Shown in pieces: positions 1,437-53,435 of a DNA stretch of 64,000 bases. Source of the DNA: Desulfobacteraceae bacterium (GTDB lineage Bacteria > Desulfobacterota > Desulfobacteria > Desulfobacterales > JAABSP01). How positions within the stretch are numbered: position 1 is the stretch's first letter; every line of letters begins with the position of its first letter. A program made the translations under genes and the position numbers. The stretch is taken from the NCBI GenBank assembly GCA_011390345.1, contig JAABSP010000002.1, positions 62,001 to 126,000 on the forward strand, in the 5' to 3' direction. The notes below the pieces were generated by a model. It saw only the letters and a program-made list of their open reading frames with translations, made no database searches and was not told the DNA's origin.

Positions 1437-1606
1437 ACCCCACCCGAAAGCAAATAGCAGAAAATCGCCGCAGAAACCGCACATAAATCCTTTATATCAG
1501 GAACTTACTGAAAATTCCTTGAAATATTCCCCCTGATAAGAGATAATTATTCTTATGGTTTAAGTTATTTGAAGAGATTTGAACATTAAGGAACAAGGAG
1601 GCGACA

Positions 1607-2254
1607 ATGATCAACGCACAAAAAATTCTCGGCGGATTGCTGCGCAATCGGGCCGGGGACAAAAAGATTCATATGGCCGCCCAACAGGGAACAACCGGAA
1701 CCGGTTTTCTTTCCGATGCAATGAATTCCATCAAAAAATTTATCAAACCCGCGGCCGGCACTTCCCCGACGCCGCCGGGAACCGCGCCGGTTCATCCGGA
1801 GCATGAGACCCCGCCCGATGATGGCCGGGCTGCGTCACCGCCGCCGCCGCCCCGAAAGGCTCCTGGTGAAAGCGCCGACATGGACGTTATGGACAGGATG
1901 GACCCGGATGGACTGGTATTGATTCAAGCCATGATCGCTTCGGCTGCGGCCGACGGCCATATCGATGCATCGGAGAAGAGCCGGATCATGGAGAGCGTGG
2001 AATCTATCGGCCTCAACGCGGAGGAGCGCTCTTTCTTGGAAAAGGAGCTGGCCAATCCGGTGGATATGGAGAAACTGGCTGCCGGCGCGAAAACGCCTGA
2101 GATGGCCAAGGAGATCTACACCGTCTCCCTCATGGCGGTGAAGGCCGACACCCATTCCGAGCAGGAGTATCTCAAGAAACTGGCCCAGCGCCTCCATATC
2201 GATTCGGAGACGGTCAAAAAGGTTCATACGGGGCTCGGTGTTGAAAATTTCTAA
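1607..2254 (+). CDS. DUF533 (TerB-like fold) protein
   Basis: 215 aa. The ATG is preceded by AAGGAGG at a good distance. The N-terminal ~90 residues are a proline/alanine-rich linker that begins with a short amphipathic stretch. The C-terminal ~120 residues match the DUF533/YebE family (LIQAMIASAAADGHIDASEK, then LANPVDMEKLAAGAKTPEMA and SLMAVKADTHSEQEYL), an all-helical TerB-like fold with conserved acidic residues. The family is widespread and often membrane-associated; its function is not established. It is followed 35 bp downstream by an AIM24-family gene, and the two are probably cotranscribed because the next terminator lies after that gene. Confidence 0.85.
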   Translation: MINAQKILGGLLRNRAGDKKIHMAAQQGTTGTGFLSDAMNSIKKFIKPAAGTSPTPPGTAPVHPEHETPPDDGRAASPPPPPRKAPGESADMDVMDRMDPDGLVLIQAMIASAAADGHIDASEKSRIMESVESIGLNAEERSFLEKELANPVDMEKLAAGAKTPEMAKEIYTVSLMAVKADTHSEQEYLKKLAQRLHIDSETVKKVHTGLGVENF

Positions 2255-3489: not shown

Positions 3490-6435
3490 CTAGGGCGATC
3501 TCACCGCCCGCACCGCCCCACACTTCTCCAATTCCACCTGAAGCCTACTCCAAGCCGTCTCCTGCTTTGTGGTGACGATATACCCCTTCTTGTTCCACCC
3601 GTGCCAGATCAGATCCGAACTCCAGTACCATTGCGCCTGGGACCCGGGAAAGAAGGGCTGTGTCTTATAGATCCCGGCCAGCTCATTGAGTGTCGGAAGA
3701 CGCCAATTCCTGTATCCGCCGGTATTCAAGCTCCTCACATACTCTTCAGCTTTTGAAAAATCAATGCACTGCCCCAGATCCACATAGGAATCGACCGTGG
3801 CCCACATCAGCCCGGTCTTCTGGTCCGTCACCGTGCCGTTGCCATTCTCCGTATACCGTCCGATCTGACTCGCCAGAGATCGAATCCTGGCAATCTCCCG
3901 ATTCACCCTTGCCTGCCGCTCCTGCTGGGCCCGGATACGCTCATCGATGGCCTGCTTCTCCTGCCGGAGCCTGGACAAAAGCGTCTGCGCTCCCTGCAGA
4001 AACTTCTCCGAGGGTTTCTGCGTAATAAACCGCTCCACCCGAGCGATCCGGTCATTGATATCCACAGAACTGTTCCGGCTGTAGGCCATTACCGCAGCCC
4101 ACTCCTGCTGCTCTGACTGCGCCTCCATCCGGGCATCCTGAAGTTTTTTCTCCTCCCGAAGCTCTACAAGGAGTTTTTGGGCCTCCTCCTGATGACGGAA
4201 TGCACCCGGATTGCTGGCAAGATATCTCTCCAGCCGATCGACCCGATCATCCAGCCCGGCCAGCCGATCATTGGCAAAGGAAAGGACATTCTCCCATTCC
4301 TGCTCCTCCTTCTCATACTGCGTCTTCTTCTGCTCGATAGCCGAAACCTGACCCGCGATCCGCTTTCGCATATAGGAAGGCGCTTCGGGATTGGCCTCGA
4401 GATAGGCCTGATAGATCCCTTTGGCGCTCTCGAAATCATACTGCATCAGGCGGATATCAGACTCCTTGGCCAGGGTGGCCAGATCCTTCTCATGCTGAAG
4501 GGTCTTCTGATACCTGATCTTCAGCCCCTCGGCCTCCCGAGCCTGCTCCGTGCCGGCAAACCGGGCAGCGAACTCATGGGTCAGCCTGATGCACTCGGCC
4601 CAGTCCTCTCGGCTCTCGCATCCGGCCAGCTCCTGTTTCAGCGCAGAAAAGTAATGCTCCACCATCTCCATGATCTGACGCCGGACATCCTCGATATGCT
4701 TCCCCTCCGGGTGCTGCTTCAGGTAGGCATTGTAGGCCCGGATGCTCTGGGTAAAATCCCCTCTGGACGCGGCCTCGACCGCCTTTTCATAATCACGGTC
4801 GTCGATCAGTTCCGGGATCTTTTCCGCCTGTTCCCGGATCCGGGCAGTATGAGCCCCTTTAGGATACCGCTTCAGATACCAGTCATAGATCTTAGCGGTC
4901 TCCTCGTAATTATCTTCGGCATTGAAGGCCTCGGCATCGGAAAGGGTCTTTTTATAATCCTGCTCCTCCATTCCCTGCCGAACCCTTGCCAGTTCCTTCC
5001 GAGCGGACCCGGCATATTCAGTATGCCCATACCGGTTGAGAAAGTTCTGCAGAACCCGCTCTTTGGCTTCGAGCCCGGGCCGGGATTGAACATCGGAAAG
5101 CATGGTGTTGTAGGCGCTTTTCAACTGTGCGGCCCGGTACATATTCATGGAGAACATCCCTCCGACCGCTATCAGAGAGACGAGCAGCAGAACCGCGGCA
5201 GCAACAATCCAGAAAGAGGGCTGCTTCGGGTTGAGCCCCAGTGTCCATTTCTCATTGATGACGATCTTGTCCCGGCTCAGGGAGAATCTTTTGATCGGCT
5301 CCTCCAGCTTATAGCCCTTCTCCCGGCAGTACTCCCGAAGATAGTCGATCCCCTCCTCCACACTCATTCCGATGGTGATGGCCCGCCGGACCAGGGGACA
5401 GAACAGGGGCTCTTTGATCTTCTTTTCGATGCCGGCCACATCGATATCGGTGTTGAACTCCCCGACCCGGGTGAGGCGGCGGGTGAAATCATAGGCCGCA
5501 CGGCTCCGGGTGGATCGGAAGATGACCATGCAGTGTCCGGCCAATGCGCCGCTGGCCGTTGTCACCGCATCTTTTTTCGAGATCTTCCGGATCTCCATCT
5601 CCTTTTCCCTGGAAATCTCCTGAAGGATGCTCAGCGGCGCATCTCTAGGAAGATCGAGAAATTCATAGAGGGTATCCTTGCCGACGATCTTCAGGTTATC
5701 CTCGATCGTATGCACCAGTGTTGTATCCAGCGGCTTGGGCTGAGGCCCCTTGGGCCCCGCCTGCTTCCGGATGGGACACTCCAGACGGGAGAGGATCAAC
5801 CCCTCCTTGACCGCATAGACTTTGGAGAGCTTTGCAATCGCATTCTCTGTGATATATCCCTTCTGGCAGGCGACCGCCAGATAATTGCGGATATTCTCAA
5901 GCCGGACCTCCTCCTTTTTCCGGACCTGCTCCCGAAGCTTGTCGGGCCCTACAGAGAGCTTTTTGGCCAGGGCTTTGAGATTCTTTTCCGAAACCATGCC
6001 GCCGGCCAGTTGCTTTTCGATCTCTACGTCGATCTTAAACAGAATCTCGTTCTTCTTCAGCCGCTCCCGGACCAGATCTTCGGAGACCCCATCGATCGCG
6101 GCAATTCCTGCGATCTCCTTATCCGTAACCGCGCCTTTGTTCATCAGAAGCCGCAGGTGATTGTCGATCCTTTCGAACTGCTCTGTTTGGCTCTTCTTCA
6201 TATGCTGCCGGGCCGCATGGGCCTCCTGCTTCCGAAGCTTGGGATCGGAAAAGACCTTTCGCATATCCGGGATCATACCGATATACCGCTTGGCCTGCAT
6301 CGCCTTTGTGGGATGATTCCGGCTGCGGCTCCATTCGGCCTGCTTTTTCTTCAGAGCCTCACTGATCACCTTCGGGTCCTGCTCCGGAGGATCCACGGAC
6401 AGTCCGAGCAACAGATAGTAATTTTCCCTCTCCAT
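3490..6435 (-). CDS. Membrane-anchored J-like protein with tandem helical repeats and C-terminal DUF1566
   Basis: 981 aa, last gene of an Hsp70 operon. Residues 1-75 look like a J-domain (ENYYLLLGLSVDPPEQ, VFSDPKLRKQEA), but the usual HPD is HPT (NHPTKAMQAK). Residues ~250-320 (TLYEFLDLPRDAPLSILQ) resemble a second, degenerate J-like unit. A single membrane helix lies at ~408-429 (FWIVAAAVLLLVSLIAVGG). The rest is long helical repeats of the TPR/YfiO kind (YDWYLKRYPKGAH, YNAYLKQHPEGKH, YLEANPEAPSY), then coiled coil. The last ~110 residues are a DUF1566/Lcl_C domain (NGTVTDQKTGLMWA, GGYRNWRLPTLNELAGIY). By topology the J-like end should be cytosolic and the repeats plus DUF1566 periplasmic. 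It starts 45 bp after the Hsp70 gene. Inference: it recruits the Hsp70 to the membrane. Confidence 0.8.
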   Translation of the reverse strand: MERENYYLLLGLSVDPPEQDPKVISEALKKKQAEWSRSRNHPTKAMQAKRYIGMIPDMRKVFSDPKLRKQEAHAARQHMKKSQTEQFERIDNHLRLLMNKGAVTDKEIAGIAAIDGVSEDLVRERLKKNEILFKIDVEIEKQLAGGMVSEKNLKALAKKLSVGPDKLREQVRKKEEVRLENIRNYLAVACQKGYITENAIAKLSKVYAVKEGLILSRLECPIRKQAGPKGPQPKPLDTTLVHTIEDNLKIVGKDTLYEFLDLPRDAPLSILQEISREKEMEIRKISKKDAVTTASGALAGHCMVIFRSTRSRAAYDFTRRLTRVGEFNTDIDVAGIEKKIKEPLFCPLVRRAITIGMSVEEGIDYLREYCREKGYKLEEPIKRFSLSRDKIVINEKWTLGLNPKQPSFWIVAAAVLLLVSLIAVGGMFSMNMYRAAQLKSAYNTMLSDVQSRPGLEAKERVLQNFLNRYGHTEYAGSARKELARVRQGMEEQDYKKTLSDAEAFNAEDNYEETAKIYDWYLKRYPKGAHTARIREQAEKIPELIDDRDYEKAVEAASRGDFTQSIRAYNAYLKQHPEGKHIEDVRRQIMEMVEHYFSALKQELAGCESREDWAECIRLTHEFAARFAGTEQAREAEGLKIRYQKTLQHEKDLATLAKESDIRLMQYDFESAKGIYQAYLEANPEAPSYMRKRIAGQVSAIEQKKTQYEKEEQEWENVLSFANDRLAGLDDRVDRLERYLASNPGAFRHQEEAQKLLVELREEKKLQDARMEAQSEQQEWAAVMAYSRNSSVDINDRIARVERFITQKPSEKFLQGAQTLLSRLRQEKQAIDERIRAQQERQARVNREIARIRSLASQIGRYTENGNGTVTDQKTGLMWATVDSYVDLGQCIDFSKAEEYVRSLNTGGYRNWRLPTLNELAGIYKTQPFFPGSQAQWYWSSDLIWHGWNKKGYIVTTKQETAWSRLQVELEKCGAVRAVRSP

Positions 6436-28966: not shown

Positions 28967-29119
28967 TTGGAGGAATGAAAGGAAGATTGGCCGATGGATC
29001 TTCCTACGGTTTCAAGGAAATTTCAACCCTCTTTTCAGATCTTTCGGCACGGCCTTGATTTTCCCGGGTCTCGGCTTATGTTTTTTCCGGGACATCACGC
29101 GGATTACAGGAGAAAACCC

Positions 29120-29731
29120 ATGAAAATATACGGATGCAAAAACAGGTTGTCGGATGCGGATCGGGCAGGCGTCCTGTCGGAGGGGCATGATTCGGGCCGG
29201 CGTAATTTTTTGAAACAGATCCTTCTAACCGGGGCCGCATGGGGGGCTTTTGCCCATCTGCCCCGGGGCAAAGGGATTTTTGCAGCGGAGGAGAAAATGG
29301 TCGATTGCAAAGAAAATCCTGGTAAGATTGAAAGAACCGAGGCTGAATGGCAGGAGATGCTGACGCCGGAAGAGTACCATATCCTGCGGGAGAAGGGGAC
29401 TGAACAGGCTTTTTCCGGGAAGTATGCCGATTACAAGAAGGAGGGGGTCTATAACTGCGCGGGGTGTGATCTGCCCCTGTTCAGTTCCGGAACCAAATAC
29501 GATTCCGGATCAGGATGGCCCAGCTTCTGGGAGCCGATCTGCCCGAACCATGTTAAGACCCGGCCGGACCGGAGCCTCTTTTCGGCGAGAACCGAGGTCC
29601 TCTGCAGACGGTGTGAATCCCACCTGGGGCATCTGTTCGAGGATGGCCCTCAGCCGACGGGGCTGCGGTACTGCATGAATTCGGCGGCGTTAAAATTTGA
29701 AAAAGAGTCGGATTCAGAATCAAAAAGATAA
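29120..29731 (+). CDS. msrB: Methionine-R-sulfoxide reductase with Tat signal
   Basis: 203 aa from the ATG at 29120 (AGGAGAAAA upstream); the frame is open further up but without a ribosome site. Residues ~25-55 form a twin-arginine signal (GRRNFLKQILLTGAAWGAFA), so the enzyme should be folded in the cytoplasm and exported. The MsrB domain has zinc pairs CAGC and CRRC, substrate motif SGSGWPSFWEPI and catalytic Cys in LRYCMNSAAL. The position that can hold a resolving Cys reads DSGSGW, so reduction may use another Cys or an outside donor. It is a free-standing gene, convergent with prfC. Confidence 0.92.
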   Translation: MKIYGCKNRLSDADRAGVLSEGHDSGRRNFLKQILLTGAAWGAFAHLPRGKGIFAAEEKMVDCKENPGKIERTEAEWQEMLTPEEYHILREKGTEQAFSGKYADYKKEGVYNCAGCDLPLFSSGTKYDSGSGWPSFWEPICPNHVKTRPDRSLFSARTEVLCRRCESHLGHLFEDGPQPTGLRYCMNSAALKFEKESDSESKR

Positions 29732-29757: not shown

Positions 29758-31386
29758 TCAATCCACCTCCCGGGTCTTCATGAACCTGATTTCAGGCCAC
29801 TGCTCCGCCACGAACTCCAGGCGCCACTCCCCATCGGCCAGAAAGGTCAGGTTTCCCTGGGCATCCAGTGCAAGATTCTTCTGATTTGCCTTTTCAAAGG
29901 CCGCCAGCCGTTTTTTGTCATCACAGTCTATCCAGCGGGCCGTGGAAAAGTTGATCGGCTCATAGATCGCATCCACGCCATACTCGGCCTTGAGCCGGCC
30001 CATGGTCACATCGAACTGCAGCACACCCACCGCGCCTAAGATGTAGTCATTTCCCATGAGGGGCCGAAAGAGCTGCACCGCGCCCTCCTCCACCAACTGG
30101 GTCAATCCCTTGTTCAGTTGTTTGGCCTTCAGTGGGGATTTGAGCTGCACCCGGCGGAAGTGTTCGGGCGCGAAGATGGGAATGCCGGTGAAGCTCAGAG
30201 GTTCCTTGTCGGTAAAGGTATCGCCGATCTTGATGGTTCCGTGGTTGTGGAGGCCGATGATGTCGCCGGGCCAGGCTTCGTCTACGGTGGTTCGGTCCTG
30301 GGCCATGAAGATGATCGGGTTGGCGAGCTGGACATCCTTGCCGATCCGGTGGTGGCGCACCCGCATTCCCCTTTCGAAACGGCCCGAACAGATCCGCAGA
30401 AACGCGATCCGGTCCCGGTGGGCCGGGTCCATGTTGGCCTGGATCTTGAAAACAAAGCCGGAGAAGGTCTCCTCTTCGGGAAAGACCTGGCGGGTGGTGG
30501 TTTCCCTCGGCAGGGGCCGGGGCGCGATCTCCACAAAGGTGTCGAGAAGTTCCCGGACTCCGAAGTTGTTGATGGCACTTCCGAAGAAGACCGGGGTCTG
30601 GCTCCCTTTCAGAAAATCATCCAGGTCAAAGGGGTTGGCCGCGCCCTCCAGCAGTTCGATGTCCTCTCGCAACTGATGGGCCTGGGTTCCCAGAAGTTCA
30701 TCCAGTTGCGGATCATCCAGATCCCGGATGGTGATCGCATCTTCGGGCAGCCGCTCCTGCCCCGGGGCAAAAAGGATGAGTTCCTTGCGATAGAGATTGT
30801 AGGTCCCTTTGAACCGCTTGCCCATGCCGATGGGCCAGGTGAGAGGGGCGCATTCGATCTGCAGGGTCTCCTCGATATCCCCGAGAATCTCCAGAGGCGA
30901 CATCCCCTCCCGGTCCAGCTTGTTGATGAAGGTCAGGATGGGGGTGTTGCGCATCCGGCAGACCTCCATCAGCTTCCGGGTCTGGGTCTCGACGCCCTTG
31001 ACGCTGTCGATGACCATCACCGCACTGTCCACCGCGGTCAGCACCCGGTAGGTATCTTCGGAAAAGTCCTGGTGGCCCGGGGTGTCCAGCAGGTTGATCT
31101 CGTAGTCGTGATAGTTGAACTTCATCACCGAGCTGGTGACAGAAATCCCTCTCTCCTGTTCGATGGCCATCCAGTCGCTGGTGGCGTGGCGGCTGGCCTT
31201 TCGGGCCTTGACCGAGCCGGCCATCTGTATCGCGCCGCCGAAGAGGAGCATCTTCTCGGTGAGAGTTGTCTTGCCGGCGTCCGGATGGCTGATGATGCCG
31301 AAGGTGCGGCGGCGGTCGATTTCCGGCTTGCCGGATCGCTTTTTGGGCCGTGCTTTTGTACTGTCAGATCCTTTTTCCATATTCAT
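29758..31386 (-). CDS. prfC: Peptide chain release factor 3
   Basis: 542 aa translational GTPase that recycles RF1/RF2 after termination. G1 [20 protein letters not shown], switch I region [21 protein letters not shown]3 [15 protein letters not shown]4 [13 protein letters not shown]. The C-terminal domain III and IV patterns ([20 protein letters not shown]) fit RF3 and not EF-G. The N-terminus has ~20 extra basic residues ahead of the first strand. No clear Shine-Dalgarno precedes the ATG; the best promoter lies ~310 bp upstream, giving a long leader. Confidence 0.95.
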
Positions 31387-31746: not shown

Positions 31747-33261
31747 TTATGCCAGACATTCTTTCCATCGATCCAGCAGCGGCTCCGGCCCCAACTCCCC
31801 CAATCCCTTTTCCGCAAAGAAGGCAAAGATATCATACCGGAACCCCTCCTGCCACCACTCCTTGAGGATCTCTCCGGTCTGCTGGGAAAATGCCCACCCC
31901 TCCCCGAGTTCCTGTTGAAGGTACTGCGCGAAGATCGCCTCCCCCATCCAGCCGAGGAGATAGTCGAGGCTGTAGAACTCCGGGACAAGATCGAAGAGGT
32001 GGCTTTCGGGCTGGTGGTAGAAGCCGGTGCTTTTCCGCATCTGTTCGGCATAGGGCTCTCCGTTTTCCAGATCTCCCCTTGAAAACATCTCGTATTCGGA
32101 GATGAACTTCCCCGCATATCGGCGGAAGACCGACAGGTCCCGAAGGTTCTTGTAATAATAGAGGGTTTGGGCATCCTTTTCGGAAAGGCCGATGATCCCC
32201 TTCGTAAAGGGCGGCGTCATCGCGATGTGCTGGAGCAGAAAGGCGTAGCACTCCGACAGGCTGTAGGCGGTCGGGAGATTTCGATCGGATAAAGGTAGAT
32301 CGGGCCGGGCGTGGGCCGCGGAAAGGCCGTGCCCCAGCTCGTGCCAGAGGGTTTCGATGTCGATCCAGCCGCGCTGGGGCCGCATCAGCACATGGATCTC
32401 CTCGGGCACAGAGAGGAAGAAGGTCATGCCCTGGGCACGTTTGCCGGTCTGCATCCCGATATCCAGATGGAGATGCGGCATCCGGAAAGGGTTGATCCCC
32501 CAGCTCTTTAAAAAGCCGAGCTGATCCTTCAGATGCTCACCCAGTAGATCCCCCAGCCGATCCTTTGGATGTTTTTCATGGAGCATCGGATCGAATTCCT
32601 GAAGACATAGGAGCTTGATCGCGTCGAACCGGTTGAGTTCAGACAATGGCCTGCCGAACCGGTTTTGAACCCATTCCTCCATGCGGGCGAAATAGAGATC
32701 ATCGGTTCTTTTCAGCAGATCGACCGCCAGCTCGTAATACCGCGCGTAGTCGATCCCCTTTTTCCGGCCGCAGTAGTCGATGTAGTTTTCAAACCCCAGC
32801 TCCTCCTTGAGCATGGTCAATTGCACATCCCAATAGTTGAGGGCAAAAGGCTTCAAAAACTTGCAAAGAGGGCCGGTCTCCTGCTGCAGAATCTGCCGCT
32901 TCTCATAGGTGCTCGATGTCTGACACCAGGGGATTATCTCCCGCATGTAGATCCGCTCTTCCCCCACCACAGCTCTGGCCCCGCGCATCCATGCCTGCAT
33001 CTCCACATCGTGGGGAAGAAGGGTCCGCTGGAGATAATGGTCAATCAGCGCGAAGCGGAGCCGGTTTCGGATTTCGGGAGGCGCGATCTCGTCGATCCGG
33101 GCAAGGGTTTTGCGGCTGATGAGTTCCTCGACTCCGTCGTAGAGTTCAAAGGAGCGCTCGGGGACCTCGCCCTTCCACAAGGAGAGGACGTCCATCTTCC
33201 AGCGGTAGTTGAGCCGGTGCAGTTCCGACTCGATATCGGCAATGGTCCGGGGTTCTCTCAT
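31747..33261 (-). CDS. M3-like zinc metallopeptidase
   Basis: 504 aa. The zinc site is LWHELGHGLSAAHA (HExxH, resembling the HEFGHA of M3 enzymes), with the third ligand Glu likely in SECYAFLLQHIAM ~30 residues on. The chain is mostly helical, as in thimet oligopeptidase/PepF-type enzymes, but shorter than the usual ~600 aa. It would cut short peptides in the cytoplasm; no signal peptide. The ATG overlaps the stop of the DsbA-like selenoprotein gene by 4 bp, so the two are translationally coupled. Confidence 0.8.
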   Translation of the reverse strand: MREPRTIADIESELHRLNYRWKMDVLSLWKGEVPERSFELYDGVEELISRKTLARIDEIAPPEIRNRLRFALIDHYLQRTLLPHDVEMQAWMRGARAVVGEERIYMREIIPWCQTSSTYEKRQILQQETGPLCKFLKPFALNYWDVQLTMLKEELGFENYIDYCGRKKGIDYARYYELAVDLLKRTDDLYFARMEEWVQNRFGRPLSELNRFDAIKLLCLQEFDPMLHEKHPKDRLGDLLGEHLKDQLGFLKSWGINPFRMPHLHLDIGMQTGKRAQGMTFFLSVPEEIHVLMRPQRGWIDIETLWHELGHGLSAAHARPDLPLSDRNLPTAYSLSECYAFLLQHIAMTPPFTKGIIGLSEKDAQTLYYYKNLRDLSVFRRYAGKFISEYEMFSRGDLENGEPYAEQMRKSTGFYHQPESHLFDLVPEFYSLDYLLGWMGEAIFAQYLQQELGEGWAFSQQTGEILKEWWQEGFRYDIFAFFAEKGLGELGPEPLLDRWKECLA

Positions 33262-33902
33262 CCGCTTTTTTCGCTTCTGCGAGGGATACCGGCTTCGATC
33301 AGCAGCCGTTCCAGCGCTTCATAGGGCTGGGCCCCAACCAGGCGGGAAACCAGTTGGGAGCCATTTGCAAAAAAGGTGGGAACCGCTCTGATCCGCTTCT
33401 CCTTTGACAATTCCCAATCACTGTCCACCGCGGCTTTGTACTTTTCCGAGCCGATAGCCTCTTTGGCTTCCCCTTCGGAAAGCCCGGCCCGGCCTGCGAT
33501 CTCTTTCAAAACCTCCGGTTCTGCAATGTTCTTTCCTTCGGCAAAGTAGGCATGGAATGCCGCGTGGTGAAATTCCTCCCCCCTACCCTTCTCCTCTGCC
33601 CACTTTCCCAGCTCCTGGGCCCCGCGGCTGTTGTAGGTATGGGTGCGATCGACAAATGGCAGCCCCAGCTCCACGGCAGCGGATTTGACCCTTGCCATGA
33701 CCTCGTCGATGTTCCCCGCGCGGCCTTTGAAGAGATCTTCCATAGACAGCCCCGCCTCCGGCGTCTCCGGATGGAGCGGAAAGGCTCGCCACTGGATGCG
33801 GACATCGAATTCTTTTTTCAGTTTTTCAATACGCCCGGTAATGAAGTAGCACCAGGGTCAGATATAGTCGGAATAGATCTCCAGTACGTTCTCTTGTGCC
33901 AT
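33258..33902 (-). CDS. DsbA/FrnE-like oxidoreductase with in-frame UGA (probable selenoprotein)
   Basis: 214 residues if TGA at 33858-33860 (codon 15) is read as selenocysteine. The N-terminus is MAQENVLEIYSDYI, then UGA, then PWCYFITGRIEKL: exactly the DsbA/FrnE active site CPWC with the first Cys as Sec (UPWC). The rest is continuous and typical of the family (FPLHPETPEAGLS; THTYNSRGAQELGKW; the cis-Pro loop AVPTFFANGSQLVSRLVGAQ). Without recoding, a protein from Met at 33743 would lack the first strand and active site. A hairpin after the UGA fits a bacterial SECIS. The gene lies 44 bp after the old yellow enzyme gene and overlaps the peptidase gene. FrnE relatives are thiol oxidoreductases or isomerases. 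Confidence 0.85.
33825..33860 (-). promoter_or_regulatory. Predicted bacterial SECIS element
   Basis: UGA (33860-33858), 12 nt, then a stem TTCA-T-TAC (33845-33838), loop CGGGC (33837-33833), and GTA-T-TGAA (33832-33825): seven base pairs with one T-T mismatch. The loop begins 20 nt after the UGA and contains G residues, in the range seen for bacterial SECIS elements recognised by SelB. Confidence 0.65.
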
Positions 33903-33946
33903 CTCGTTCTTCTCCTTTTTCGGATCACAATGGGGGATTGGGGAAC

Positions 33947-35056
33947 TTATGCCTCTTCTTCCGCGGTTTTGCAGCAGATCCCCTCCCCTTCCAGGGCCGG
34001 TTTGAAGCAGCGGTTGTCTGATTTGCATCCGGATATCCGGTTTTTCCCCGCCATCCATTCCCGGATCAGCTCGGGATTCCGGATCAGGGGACGGCTCATC
34101 GCGATGTAATCGGCAGTGCCCTCTTTGATCAGCCCCTCTGCCGTCTCCAGAGAGCGGATACCGCCCACCAGGATCAGCGGGGTTCTCAGATATGTTTTGT
34201 ATTTTTGGGCAGCGTCCCGGTAGAAGACCTCCTTTTCCGGGGAATCGATGCGAACCGTCCGCACCGGGTTCAGCTTGGGGCTGGAGAACTGAACCCCGCC
34301 CGAGAGTTCGATCGCGTCGATCCCCTCGGCCTCGAGCATCCGGGCCACGGTCAGCATCTCCTCCTGTGTCATTCCCCCGTCGATGAAGTCCTCGGAATTG
34401 AGCTTGATCAGCACCGGAAATTCCGGACCAACGGCCTCCCGCACCAGGCGGCAGACTTCGATGACGGCCTTTGCCCGGTTTTCGATGGGGCCGCCGTATT
34501 CATCGGTTCTCTTGTTGTAATAGGGGGAGAGAAACTGGCTGAGGAAGTAGCCGTGTGCGGCATGGATCTGAACCGCATCGAATCCGGCAGATTTGGCCCG
34601 GGCCGCGGCCATTCCAAATGCATCGAGAGCCTCTTCGATCTCCTGAACCGTGATCTCTCTGCAGATGGGCCCCTGTTTTCCACTTACCACAGAAGGGCCG
34701 AATCCCTTTTCCCCGATGATCTCCTGATTGGCATGGCATCCGGCATGGGCCAACTGAATCGCCATGGCTCCGCCCGCGTCATGGACCGCGTCGGCCATCT
34801 TTTTCAGGCCAGGAAGCAGATGATCGTCATATATCCCCAACTGGCGGCCGGATGCCTTTCCCAGGGGATGGACATAGGCGTGGCCGCTGATGATGAGCCC
34901 TACGCCGCCCCGGACCAGTTTTGTCATCAGCTCGATGAGTTGATCCGTCACCGCACCGTCAGCGGCTGCGGCCAGTCCGGTCCATGTGGCGGAACGGACC
35001 GTGCGGTTTTTCAGCTCCATGCTCTTGATTGTCGTCTTTTCAAATAGTTCAGGCAC
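33947..35056 (-). CDS. Old yellow enzyme-family NADH:flavin oxidoreductase
   Basis: 369 aa FMN TIM barrel. Start region LFEKTTIKSMELKNRTVRSA; AMAIQLAHAGCHAN; the substrate-binding His pair and the tyrosine-rich loop IHAAHGYFLSQFLSPYYNKR, then TDEYGGPIENRAKAV; phosphate-binding ILVGGIRSLETAEGLI. It lacks the second flavin domain of 2,4-dienoyl-CoA reductases but ends in a short Cys-rich tail (GCKSDNRCFKP, GEGICCK). Substrate unknown; probably an enone or enoate. Member of a minus-strand redox operon. Confidence 0.9.
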   Translation of the reverse strand: MPELFEKTTIKSMELKNRTVRSATWTGLAAAADGAVTDQLIELMTKLVRGGVGLIISGHAYVHPLGKASGRQLGIYDDHLLPGLKKMADAVHDAGGAMAIQLAHAGCHANQEIIGEKGFGPSVVSGKQGPICREITVQEIEEALDAFGMAAARAKSAGFDAVQIHAAHGYFLSQFLSPYYNKRTDEYGGPIENRAKAVIEVCRLVREAVGPEFPVLIKLNSEDFIDGGMTQEEMLTVARMLEAEGIDAIELSGGVQFSSPKLNPVRTVRIDSPEKEVFYRDAAQKYKTYLRTPLILVGGIRSLETAEGLIKEGTADYIAMSRPLIRNPELIREWMAGKNRISGCKSDNRCFKPALEGEGICCKTAEEEA

Positions 35057-35127: not shown

Positions 35128-35694
35128 CTAAACCAGCTTTCCCAGAGAGAAGGCATCGCCGATGAGTTCTCCCACACCATAATATTTCCGGGCCTCCGGT
35201 GCAAAGAGAATGGGCCGGATCTTTTCGATATCCGGAAGGCCATTCTCGCCGATGGCCTCCTCATCGGCCTTTACATCCATGATCTCCCCCACAAACTGGG
35301 TGTGGAGCCCGATCTCGAGGGTATGAATCAGGCTGCACTCGAGAATCAGAGGGAACTCCTTGACATAGGGCGCATCCACCCGGTCGCTCTTGGCCGGGGT
35401 GAGGCCGGTCTTTTCGAATTTGTTCTCCCGCTTTCCCGAGACCATGCCGAAGTAGTCGGCCTCTTTGGCATATCTCTCCGATGGGATGCTCAGGGTGTAG
35501 GCTTTCCGCTCCACGATGCACCCGTAACTGTATGTGGCCTTTCGAAGGGAGACCGTAACGCATGGGGGGCTGGAGCAGCAGATGCCGCCCCAGGCCGCGG
35601 TCATGCCGTTGGGCTTGCCCTCCTTGTCATAGGTTCCCACGATCAGCACCGGTGTGGGATAGAGGATTGTCTTTGCGCCGATGGATCTTTTCAT
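35128..35694 (-). CDS. Flavin reductase-family protein
   Basis: 188 aa, FMN-binding split barrel of the DIM6/NTAB (flavoredoxin-like) kind: [39 protein letters not shown], and [20 protein letters not shown] (FMN-binding region). Members reduce FMN with NAD(P)H or shuttle electrons in anaerobes. It lies between the SDR gene (32 bp upstream) and the old yellow enzyme gene (71 bp downstream) and may supply reduced flavin to the latter. Two adjacent Cys at ICCSSPPC are unusual but not known to be catalytic. Confidence 0.88.
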
Positions 35695-50988: not shown

Positions 50989-53435
50989 CCTCCACGCACC
51001 CTCCCCTCTCTCCTCAGGATTATTCCGCCCTTCGAAACGAACTCCTCTCCCTGATGGACCAGGGGCTTGCGATCGAGGGGCTCGATCCGGATTTTCGCTG
51101 TTCCCTAAAAAATATCCGAAGCCGGACCCTGGAGGACCGGTTTCATATCGTTCTGGCCGGTGAGTTCCAAGGGGGAAAATCGACTACCTTCAACGCGATC
51201 TGCGGCCGAAGGCCCCTTTCCCCGATGGGATCAGGCATTAAAACAAGTGCAGCGCTGCTTTCGGCCCAGCCCCTTTCCGATGCCGACGCTGCGGAATGGG
51301 CTCAGGTGGAATGGAAAACCCCTTCACAGCTCATGGCAGGCTTTTCCGATCTTCTGCTGCCCCAACTGCGGGCACTGGCCCCCAAACGGCTTGAAAAAGC
51401 CGACGCGGGGGGCCTGCCCCATCTTCTGGATCTTAAAAACCCCGCGGACCGATCCCTGATTCAAAAAGCGATCGACGCGGAATGGAGTCGCTGGGAGCAG
51501 AACCGCCGCGGCTACGACCCTCAAGGAAAGGGAAACCTTGAAATCCTCCGCTGCGCCACCCTGATCCTGCGCCATTACGACAGTCCGGTACTTCAAAAAC
51601 TTTCCCGCCAGAACCGCTTTTCCCTGCAGGAGATCCCACCCCTGGCCGCCTTCCCGGAAGACTGGGAGATCCGCTGGATCGAACAGGGCCCCCAAGCCTT
51701 TTCCGATAACGATATCCTTTCCGTTTCCGATAAAGATGTCCCTTCCGTCCTTTTTGTCCCTTCGGTCCTTTTTGTCTTTGTGGCCCACATCCGCCTCTTC
51801 ATCCATTCCCCGAACCTTCAAAGAATCGGCTGCGTCCTCCGAGACTGTCCCGGCCTCTTCGCCAGCCGCTGGGACACCCAGATCGCCCGCCGCGCAATCC
51901 TTTCCGCAGACGCCATCCTCTACATCTTCGACGGCTCCCGCCCCTTAAAAGGATCTGACCTCAAAGCCCTCGACTTCATCCGAAACCACCGCATCCTCCA
52001 CAGAACCTTTTACGGATGCAACCTCCGGGGCCGCACCCCGGAAGAGGGCATCCGGGTACTCGACGCCAGCCTCAGCGCCCTCCGCAGGCGCGAAATCGAA
52101 GTCCCCCAAGAGCGAACCGCCCTCTTCGATGCAAAAAAAGCATTCGAAGCCGCACAGAAAAAGGAGAAGGCCCCCGGCCTGGAACGCCTGACGGAGATGG
52201 CCGAAACCGCAGTGATTCAGGAAAAGGCAAGAGCGATCCTCATCGACAACGGCGCCCAAATCCTCCTGGAGGGCCTGGACCGCCTGAAAGGGGATCTGCT
52301 CAACAGAGAGGTTCAGGCCAGAAGAACGGAAAAGGAGCTGCGGGAGGCCGCAGCAAATGCCGAAGCAGCGTTGCGCCGGTTCGAAGCCGACTGCAGGATC
52401 GCGCTCACCCCTTTGGAGAATCCGGCCCCGGACCGAATCCTTGCTCAAGCCCTCTGGGAAGAACTCCTATCAGAGCAAAATCCGCTCATAGAATCCCTCA
52501 CCAAAAGAATCACCAAGGAGATCTTTAACATCAAAGACCTCTCCCGCGTCATCCTCCGATCCAAAACAGTGGAGAACCGAATCATGGATCTGATCCAAAG
52601 GGAGATCGACGAGCGGTTCGAAGCGCGAATTCATGCCTGGATGAACCAGATCGAAACCGGGAGAAATCCGGTCTACAACCGGGAGATGGCCCGGCGGATC
52701 AAGGCCGTGGACGCGGACCTGAAACGGATCTGGGCCCGCGTCTCTTCGGGCGAGCAGGATCTGCTGCAGGGGATCTCTCCCCCGGTCTTCACCGGCAATC
52801 CCGCGCTGGATCACGAACGGATCTGCTGCGGAATGGAGAGCGGAGAACTCCTTTCAAACCTCCGGTACAGCGCGGCCGCAGCCGCAAGCCTTACGGGAAT
52901 TATGACCGCGGCATCGGGAATCGCGGCCTCGGTCACGGCCGTTGTGGGCCGGCTCTTCTGGGCCGCGGCCGCGTCGGCCGGGGTGATGCTCGTCAATGCC
53001 CTGCTGCTTATTGCCGCAAAGGGAGCCATCAAAGAGACCCTTCAGGAGGAGATCCGAACCCGCCTCTCCCCGGCCCTGATCCGCCTCTTTTCCGAAATCG
53101 AACCGGAAGTGAATGCCCATTTTGCCCTTTTCTTCAAAGAGGTCAGGGAAGGCTATCTCACCCTTTTTCTCGACGCGGCCAAAGCACCGGCCCGGGCACT
53201 GGCGGCCCGGGTGGAAGCGGCCCGAGACGCTCAGACAATGGGAGCCGAAGAACGAAAGCTGTCCGCATCCCAAGCCAGAGCCTCGAGAACCAAAACCGTG
53301 GAACCGCTGCTGCAGGATGTTGCCGCCTTCATCCACCATGTCCGCGAAAGGGTTTCACAAAGATGGTCCCCATCTGAAAGGGAAATCCCCTGCCGGCCGC
53401 CCGATCCCGGAAATAGCGCTGAAGTGTCTCTTTGA
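50976..53435 (+). CDS. Dynamin-like GTPase 3
   Basis: 819 aa. P-loop FHIVLAGEFQGGKSTTFNAI at ~52-68; G2 likely GSGIKTSAALLS; G3 RIGCVLRDCPGLFASRWD (DCPG); G4 not clear. Residues ~245-270 contain the repeat VPSVLFVPSVLFVFV just before G3. A hydrophobic hairpin at ~630-690 (LTGIMTAASGIAASVTAVVG, FWAAAASAGVMLVNALLLIA) would be a membrane-inserting paddle, and helices flank it, as in bacterial dynamin-like proteins. No convincing Shine-Dalgarno; its start lies in a duplicated 38-bp unit. Its last 107 bp overlap the convergent Nudix gene. Confidence 0.82.
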   Translation: MPENPSTHPPLSPQDYSALRNELLSLMDQGLAIEGLDPDFRCSLKNIRSRTLEDRFHIVLAGEFQGGKSTTFNAICGRRPLSPMGSGIKTSAALLSAQPLSDADAAEWAQVEWKTPSQLMAGFSDLLLPQLRALAPKRLEKADAGGLPHLLDLKNPADRSLIQKAIDAEWSRWEQNRRGYDPQGKGNLEILRCATLILRHYDSPVLQKLSRQNRFSLQEIPPLAAFPEDWEIRWIEQGPQAFSDNDILSVSDKDVPSVLFVPSVLFVFVAHIRLFIHSPNLQRIGCVLRDCPGLFASRWDTQIARRAILSADAILYIFDGSRPLKGSDLKALDFIRNHRILHRTFYGCNLRGRTPEEGIRVLDASLSALRRREIEVPQERTALFDAKKAFEAAQKKEKAPGLERLTEMAETAVIQEKARAILIDNGAQILLEGLDRLKGDLLNREVQARRTEKELREAAANAEAALRRFEADCRIALTPLENPAPDRILAQALWEELLSEQNPLIESLTKRITKEIFNIKDLSRVILRSKTVENRIMDLIQREIDERFEARIHAWMNQIETGRNPVYNREMARRIKAVDADLKRIWARVSSGEQDLLQGISPPVFTGNPALDHERICCGMESGELLSNLRYSAAAAASLTGIMTAASGIAASVTAVVGRLFWAAAASAGVMLVNALLLIAAKGAIKETLQEEIRTRLSPALIRLFSEIEPEVNAHFALFFKEVREGYLTLFLDAAKAPARALAARVEAARDAQTMGAEERKLSASQARASRTKTVEPLLQDVAAFIHHVRERVSQRWSPSEREIPCRPPDPGNSAEVSL
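51738..51782. repeat. 9/18-bp tandem repeat inside GTPase 3
   Basis: GTCCCTTCSGTCCTTTTT occurs twice (51738-51773, one difference), followed by GTCTTTGTG. In frame it codes for VPSVLF twice. On the other strand it reads AAAAAGGAC/GGAAGGGAC, like the tract at 42691-42735. Confidence 0.8.

Follow-up and report, generated by a model that had tools for sequence, protein, structure and literature searches.

Selenoproteins with a UxxC motif and belonging to COG2761/PF01323 were described from the Sargasso Sea in 2005 (PMC1088965), and DsbA-like selenoproteins were found in several sequenced bacteria one year later, in 2006 (PMC1794560). The DsbA-like UxxC kind has since been listed in later reviews (PMC9312934, PMC13188914). 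The bacterial SECIS model comprises an apical loop of 3–9 nt, an upper stem of 4–16 bp, a G at loop position 1 or 2, a distance of 16–37 nt from the UGA and a minimum free energy of -7.5 kcal/mol or lower (PMC13188914). For the FrnE proteins, a C-terminal CXXXXC motif helps to regenerate the Deinococcus enzyme, and members without this motif have been reported, showing that it is not universal (PMC8945050).

The gene and its protein family

The complete coding sequence of a predicted FrnE/DsbA-type selenoprotein was identified on the minus strand at 33258–33902 of the window, the whole 64,000-nucleotide stretch of DNA analyzed here, which is located in contig C58 of its own Desulfobacterales-type genome (G000). 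The gene encodes 214 residues with the putative Sec at position 15. A Shine–Dalgarno sequence (AGGAG, 33912–33916, minus strand) lies nine bases 5' of the ATG at 33902, and the in-frame UGA of codon 15 occupies 33858–33860 (minus strand). Reading of the sequence gives 199 codons after this UGA and a TGA stop codon at 33260–33258 (minus strand). The N-terminus reads MAQENVLEIYSDYI-U-PWCYF..., in which the UGA replaces the first Cys of a CPWC motif and forms the first residue of a UPWC active site. In the plain list of open reading frames, the same frame begins at ATG 33743 and lacks the active site, but the extent of the coding sequence is supported by homologs of the same start and length. The first-pass annotation had read the minus-strand frame from ATG 33902 through the TGA of codon 15 into a complete FrnE/DsbA-like protein, with the UGA at the first Cys of CPWC. 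Both claims are borne out by the sequence, and the homologs carry only TGA or Cys codons here. The sequence-based evidence that codon 15 would be translated as selenocysteine is strong.

The Pfam DSBA model (PF01323) matches residues 7–200 of the protein with 125.5 bits, and the best PDB match by sequence is FrnE (E 9e-18). The AlphaFold model (pLDDT 95.7, pTM 0.91) reaches TM scores of 0.83–0.86 against the FrnE structures and 0.84 against S. coelicolor SCO1869. No solved structure is closer than FrnE in either sequence or fold, in agreement with the DsbA/FrnE-like identity first assigned to the gene. We take COG2761 to be the FrnE family, which the PDB match supports. The redox CXXC-type motif (C/U) is present at the start of helix 1, and Sec/Cys15, Cys18 and Pro175 (the cis-Pro position) are invariant in the alignments. 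The codon of the resolving Cys18 (TGC, 33849–33851, minus strand) encodes the only Cys besides the Sec site, and this residue is invariant in the A2 and A3 alignments. The protein sequence carries neither a leader segment nor a C-terminal CXXXXC motif, and no Cys other than Cys18. NCBIfam has no model capturing the protein, its best match reaching 25 bits where the cut-off is 190.

We consider it almost certain that the product is a cytosolic thiol-disulfide oxidoreductase of the FrnE type, with the Sec of UPWC as nucleophile, decoded via SelB and the SECIS element. The insertion of Sec, the cytosolic reductase or isomerase activity and the substrate are what we infer for this protein. In the proposed scheme, SelB carrying Sec-tRNA would bind the hairpin just 3' of the UGA, and Sec would be incorporated where translation would otherwise end. 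Sec15, as selenolate, would then attack a disulfide or another oxidized thiol substrate, Cys18 would resolve the resulting mixed selenenylsulfide, and the enzyme would be brought back to its reduced state by a reductant of the cell.

Active-site codon and hairpin among the homologs

Among 291 genomes of the class, 120 contain homologs at E ≤ 1e-20, mostly with a single in-frame TGA. The active-site codon was read in 69 class homologs, giving TGA in 61, TGC in 7 and TGT in 1, with no other codon. A second collection with named organisms contains 79 homologs, with 28 TGA, 26 TGC and 25 TGT codons and again no other. TGA, TGC and TGT are therefore the sole codons at this site in the 148 homologs of the two collections together, and the Cys homologs that had been anticipated were found in both (8 of 69 and 51 of 79). 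The TGA form was seen in Desulfobacterales, Desulfobulbaceae, Syntrophaceae, Desulfofustis glycolicus and Desulfosediminicola flagellatus, among others, as well as in an Acidobacteria bin, a candidate Abyssobacteria bin and a Dehalococcoidia bin. Single in-frame TGAs occur in homologs across the phylum. The Sec form of this gene is widespread in Desulfobacterota, and more than 100 related genomes appear to use UGA likewise at this site. Gene callers for which UGA can only terminate would return a fragment without the active site, probably in at least 100 genomes. TAG and TAA codons listed inside some homologs were considered as candidates for pyrrolysine and proved to be the ordinary terminators of these genes.

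The SECIS hairpin, assigned by covariation and pair retention, spans 33825–33845 on the minus strand, with arms at 33845–33838 and 33832–33825 (UUCAUUAC and GUAUUGAA). The apical loop CGGGC is at 33837–33833 (minus strand), and 20 nt separate it from the UGA. Of the 7-bp hairpin described in the first-pass annotation, the loop and the 20-nt spacing held, but the continuous 7-bp stem did not: the stem is formed by 4 bp, a U-U mismatch and 3 bp (UUCA-U-UAC / GUA-U-UGAA). Set against the bacterial SECIS model, as that annotation had proposed, the hairpin fits in loop size (5 nt), stem length, position of the G (second) and spacing. Its energy is weak, as the hairpin alone in the window sequence gives -3.6 kcal/mol and falls short of the -7.5 kcal/mol threshold. 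A 45-nt stretch reaches -9.4 kcal/mol, but as a competing fold, and single-sequence folding of a 49-nt stretch also prefers another fold, so the minimum-energy structure is not this hairpin. When synonymous codons were shuffled, the folding energies of TGA and Cys homologs were alike (mean z -0.72 and -0.79); this comparison is uninformative, since another structure often takes the global minimum. Given the weak single-sequence energy, the argument for the SECIS therefore rests on comparison and not on folding.

Comparative analysis revealed standard pairs in 424 of 472 pair cells among 59 distinct TGA homologs, and in only 29 of 64 pair cells among 8 Cys homologs. The loop G is in the second position in nearly all homologs. 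Covariation was assessed in 32 diverse sequences against shuffles and slid stems. Double-sided changes affect five stem pairs and 32 cells, compared with 9.8 ± 2.2 in shuffles, and 90.2% of the cells are paired, compared with 77.8 ± 1.3%. The covariation score is 0.377, against 0.159 ± 0.019 in shuffles and at most 0.155 for slid stems, and RNAalifold recovers the same stem unprompted. Examples of paired changes are A-U to G-C at columns 19/33, U-A to C-G at 21/31 and C-G to A-U at 23/29. In the distant branch L117–L122, the hairpin sequence differs (e.g., ATCGGCAAAGGTATTGTCGAT) with its shape and distance unchanged. The hairpin expected after the UGA is thus present and covaries in the TGA homologs; judged from these alignments, it is real, far beyond chance, and as an example of covariation in a bacterial SECIS the homolog set is unusually clear.

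The history of the site was read from a quick tree of 145 proteins, on which the U/C label requires 8 changes, with at least 3 forced by strongly supported branches. In one large Desulfobacterota clade, Sec is the usual residue, and Cys is nested within this clade several times (L105/L109, L106, L107/L108 and L148/L152), so that the homologs show nested Sec-to-Cys losses. L106, a second copy in genome G104 (1489–2208, plus strand), carries TGT among Sec homologs together with a damaged hairpin (TTCATAATCGGGTGCATTGAA), and from its sequence looks like a possible recent Sec-to-Cys loss. The other Sec branches, L117–L122 and L163, lie outside the large clade. L117–L122 form a distant UPFC branch, and two of the genomes concerned (G117 and G119) carry the main Sec copy as well. 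L162, which is not on the tree, and L163 both have TGA at this codon and come from Chloroflexi and Dehalococcoidia bins; a separate origin or a transfer of Sec is possible for these two.

Selenocysteine machinery and neighboring genes

The genome's own SelA, SelB and SelD were detected with 600, 360 and 386 bits, respectively, all above the curated cut-offs. The SelD gene (L018, contig C131, minus strand) itself contains an in-frame UGA (GAG-U-ASKLP), which is followed by a hairpin of -20.3 kcal/mol. Of the four genes selA, selB, selC and selD that the first-pass annotation had named for a check, selC is the one missing: Rfam tRNA-Sec and pattern searches did not find tRNA-Sec in this fragmented assembly. 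The top match of the Rfam search was a tRNA-Trp, the rest being tRNAs for Leu, Ser and Arg. The anticodon and T-arm pattern gave two identical matches in contig C197, where ARAGORN called no tRNA and the flanks resemble coding repeats. These stretches, at 53334 and 57316 (L056 and L057), are identical, lie 4 kb apart and are apparently repeated coding sequence that mimics the tRNA-Sec pattern.

In the same-family genomes G237 and G069, tRNA-Sec was found with 76.5 bits and called tRNA-SeC by ARAGORN. The selC of G237 lies between a cNMP-binding gene and a gene that, from reading its protein, we take to be lepB. In the genome studied here, the ortholog that best matches the cNMP-binding gene lies on contig C81 and extends to base 5470 of 5471, and the lepB query gave no match. 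The contig breaks where selC should lie, which would account for its absence from the assembly; most likely, selC falls in the gap at the end of contig C81. TGAs reported inside genes by the expected selC position lie before the start codons. SelA is present in 24 of 24 TGA-bearing genomes tested and also in 11 of 13 Cys-only genomes. This co-occurrence fits selenocysteine use but does not discriminate, because nearly all the Cys-only genomes tested have SelA.

Downstream, a gene for a 504-residue WHELGH zinc-peptidase-like protein (31747–33261, minus strand) overlaps the Sec gene by 4 bases (ATGA) and is probably co-transcribed with it. For the WHELGH protein, Pfam gave no match even with the threshold relaxed to E 1, nor did NCBIfam at 1e-3. 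Upstream, an OYE-type FMN oxidoreductase gene (33947–35056, minus strand; Oxidored_FMN, 231 bits) is located 44 bases before the Sec gene, and a flavin reductase-like gene (35128–35694, minus strand; PF01613, 116 bits) runs in the same direction. The WHELGH gene and the flavin reductase gene are kept beside the Sec gene, downstream and upstream respectively, in G237 and G069, but the OYE-type gene was not found adjacent to it in the same-family genomes. Beyond the family, the neighborhood shows only sporadic similarity. A functional link of the Sec protein to flavin enzymes is only a guess. Two further genes lie near the Sec gene in the window and were not seen beside it elsewhere, encoding release factor RF3 (29758–31386, minus strand) and methionine sulfoxide reductase B with a SelR domain (28994–29731, plus strand). 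Other UGA/Cys neighbors were sought across the window, and by eye nothing stood out from noise.

Alternative readings and known relatives

Several other explanations of the TGA were weighed against selenocysteine. A plain open reading frame does begin at 33743, and the TGA could accordingly be a real stop, leaving either a broken pseudogene or a 161-residue true product. This is very unlikely given that the same codon is TGA, with the frame intact on both sides, in 61 of 69 homologs; moreover, the hairpin covaries, and the downstream frame would be missing the initial beta strands as well as the active-site helix. An error of sequencing or assembly for TGC or TGT needs a single base, the one that separates TGA from a Cys codon, but is hardly credible when TGA is found independently in dozens of genomes, complete and isolate ones included. 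Neither such an error nor a random stop can explain the site, since the same-codon TGA recurs among the homologs and across the phylum. A general code change, with UGA assigned to Trp, Cys or some other residue, is extremely unlikely: the window gene and many of its relatives terminate at TGA, the neighboring genes are normal under table 11, and the Sec machinery is present.

The main job of the selenoprotein may also differ from disulfide exchange, for example in the manner of a GSH-dependent HCCA isomerase or kappa-type GST. The fold is shared with 2-hydroxychromene-2-carboxylate isomerase and kappa GST (TM 0.69–0.73, normalized by query length), but FrnE is clearly the nearest structure, and the two redox residues of UPWC and the cis-Pro position are kept and invariant in the alignments, which makes this role improbable. 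A much broader reading of the FrnE-type oxidoreductase preferred here is speculative and rather doubtful: the Sec-containing FrnE would serve Desulfobacterota as a core and widespread disulfide reductase of the cytosol, dependent on selenium and recycled by a route of its own through neighboring flavin enzymes in place of a C-terminal Cys pair, and Sec would have arisen more than once in the family. The homolog set points to a testable role for selenium in the cytosolic disulfide control of sulfate-reducing bacteria.

The nearest solved relative is FrnE of Deinococcus radiodurans (PDB 5cnw, 5co3 and 5xwh), a cytosolic DsbA-family protein with a CP(W/F)C motif, from which the window protein differs by Sec in place of the first Cys and by lacking the C-terminal CXXXXC. 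The Cys-containing FrnE/DsbA homologs of Pseudomonadota, Bacillota, Chloroflexota and archaea (L144, L149, L153, L155 and others) belong to the same family, but carry an ordinary TGC or TGT and no SECIS hairpin. The published DsbA-like selenoproteins are likewise assigned to COG2761/PF01323, with a UxxC motif and Sec at the first Cys, and likewise have a downstream hairpin with G in the apical loop; deltaproteobacteria are among their hosts. The window gene is a further example of this selenoprotein type, known since 2005, its identity with the published subfamily being deduced from COG2761.
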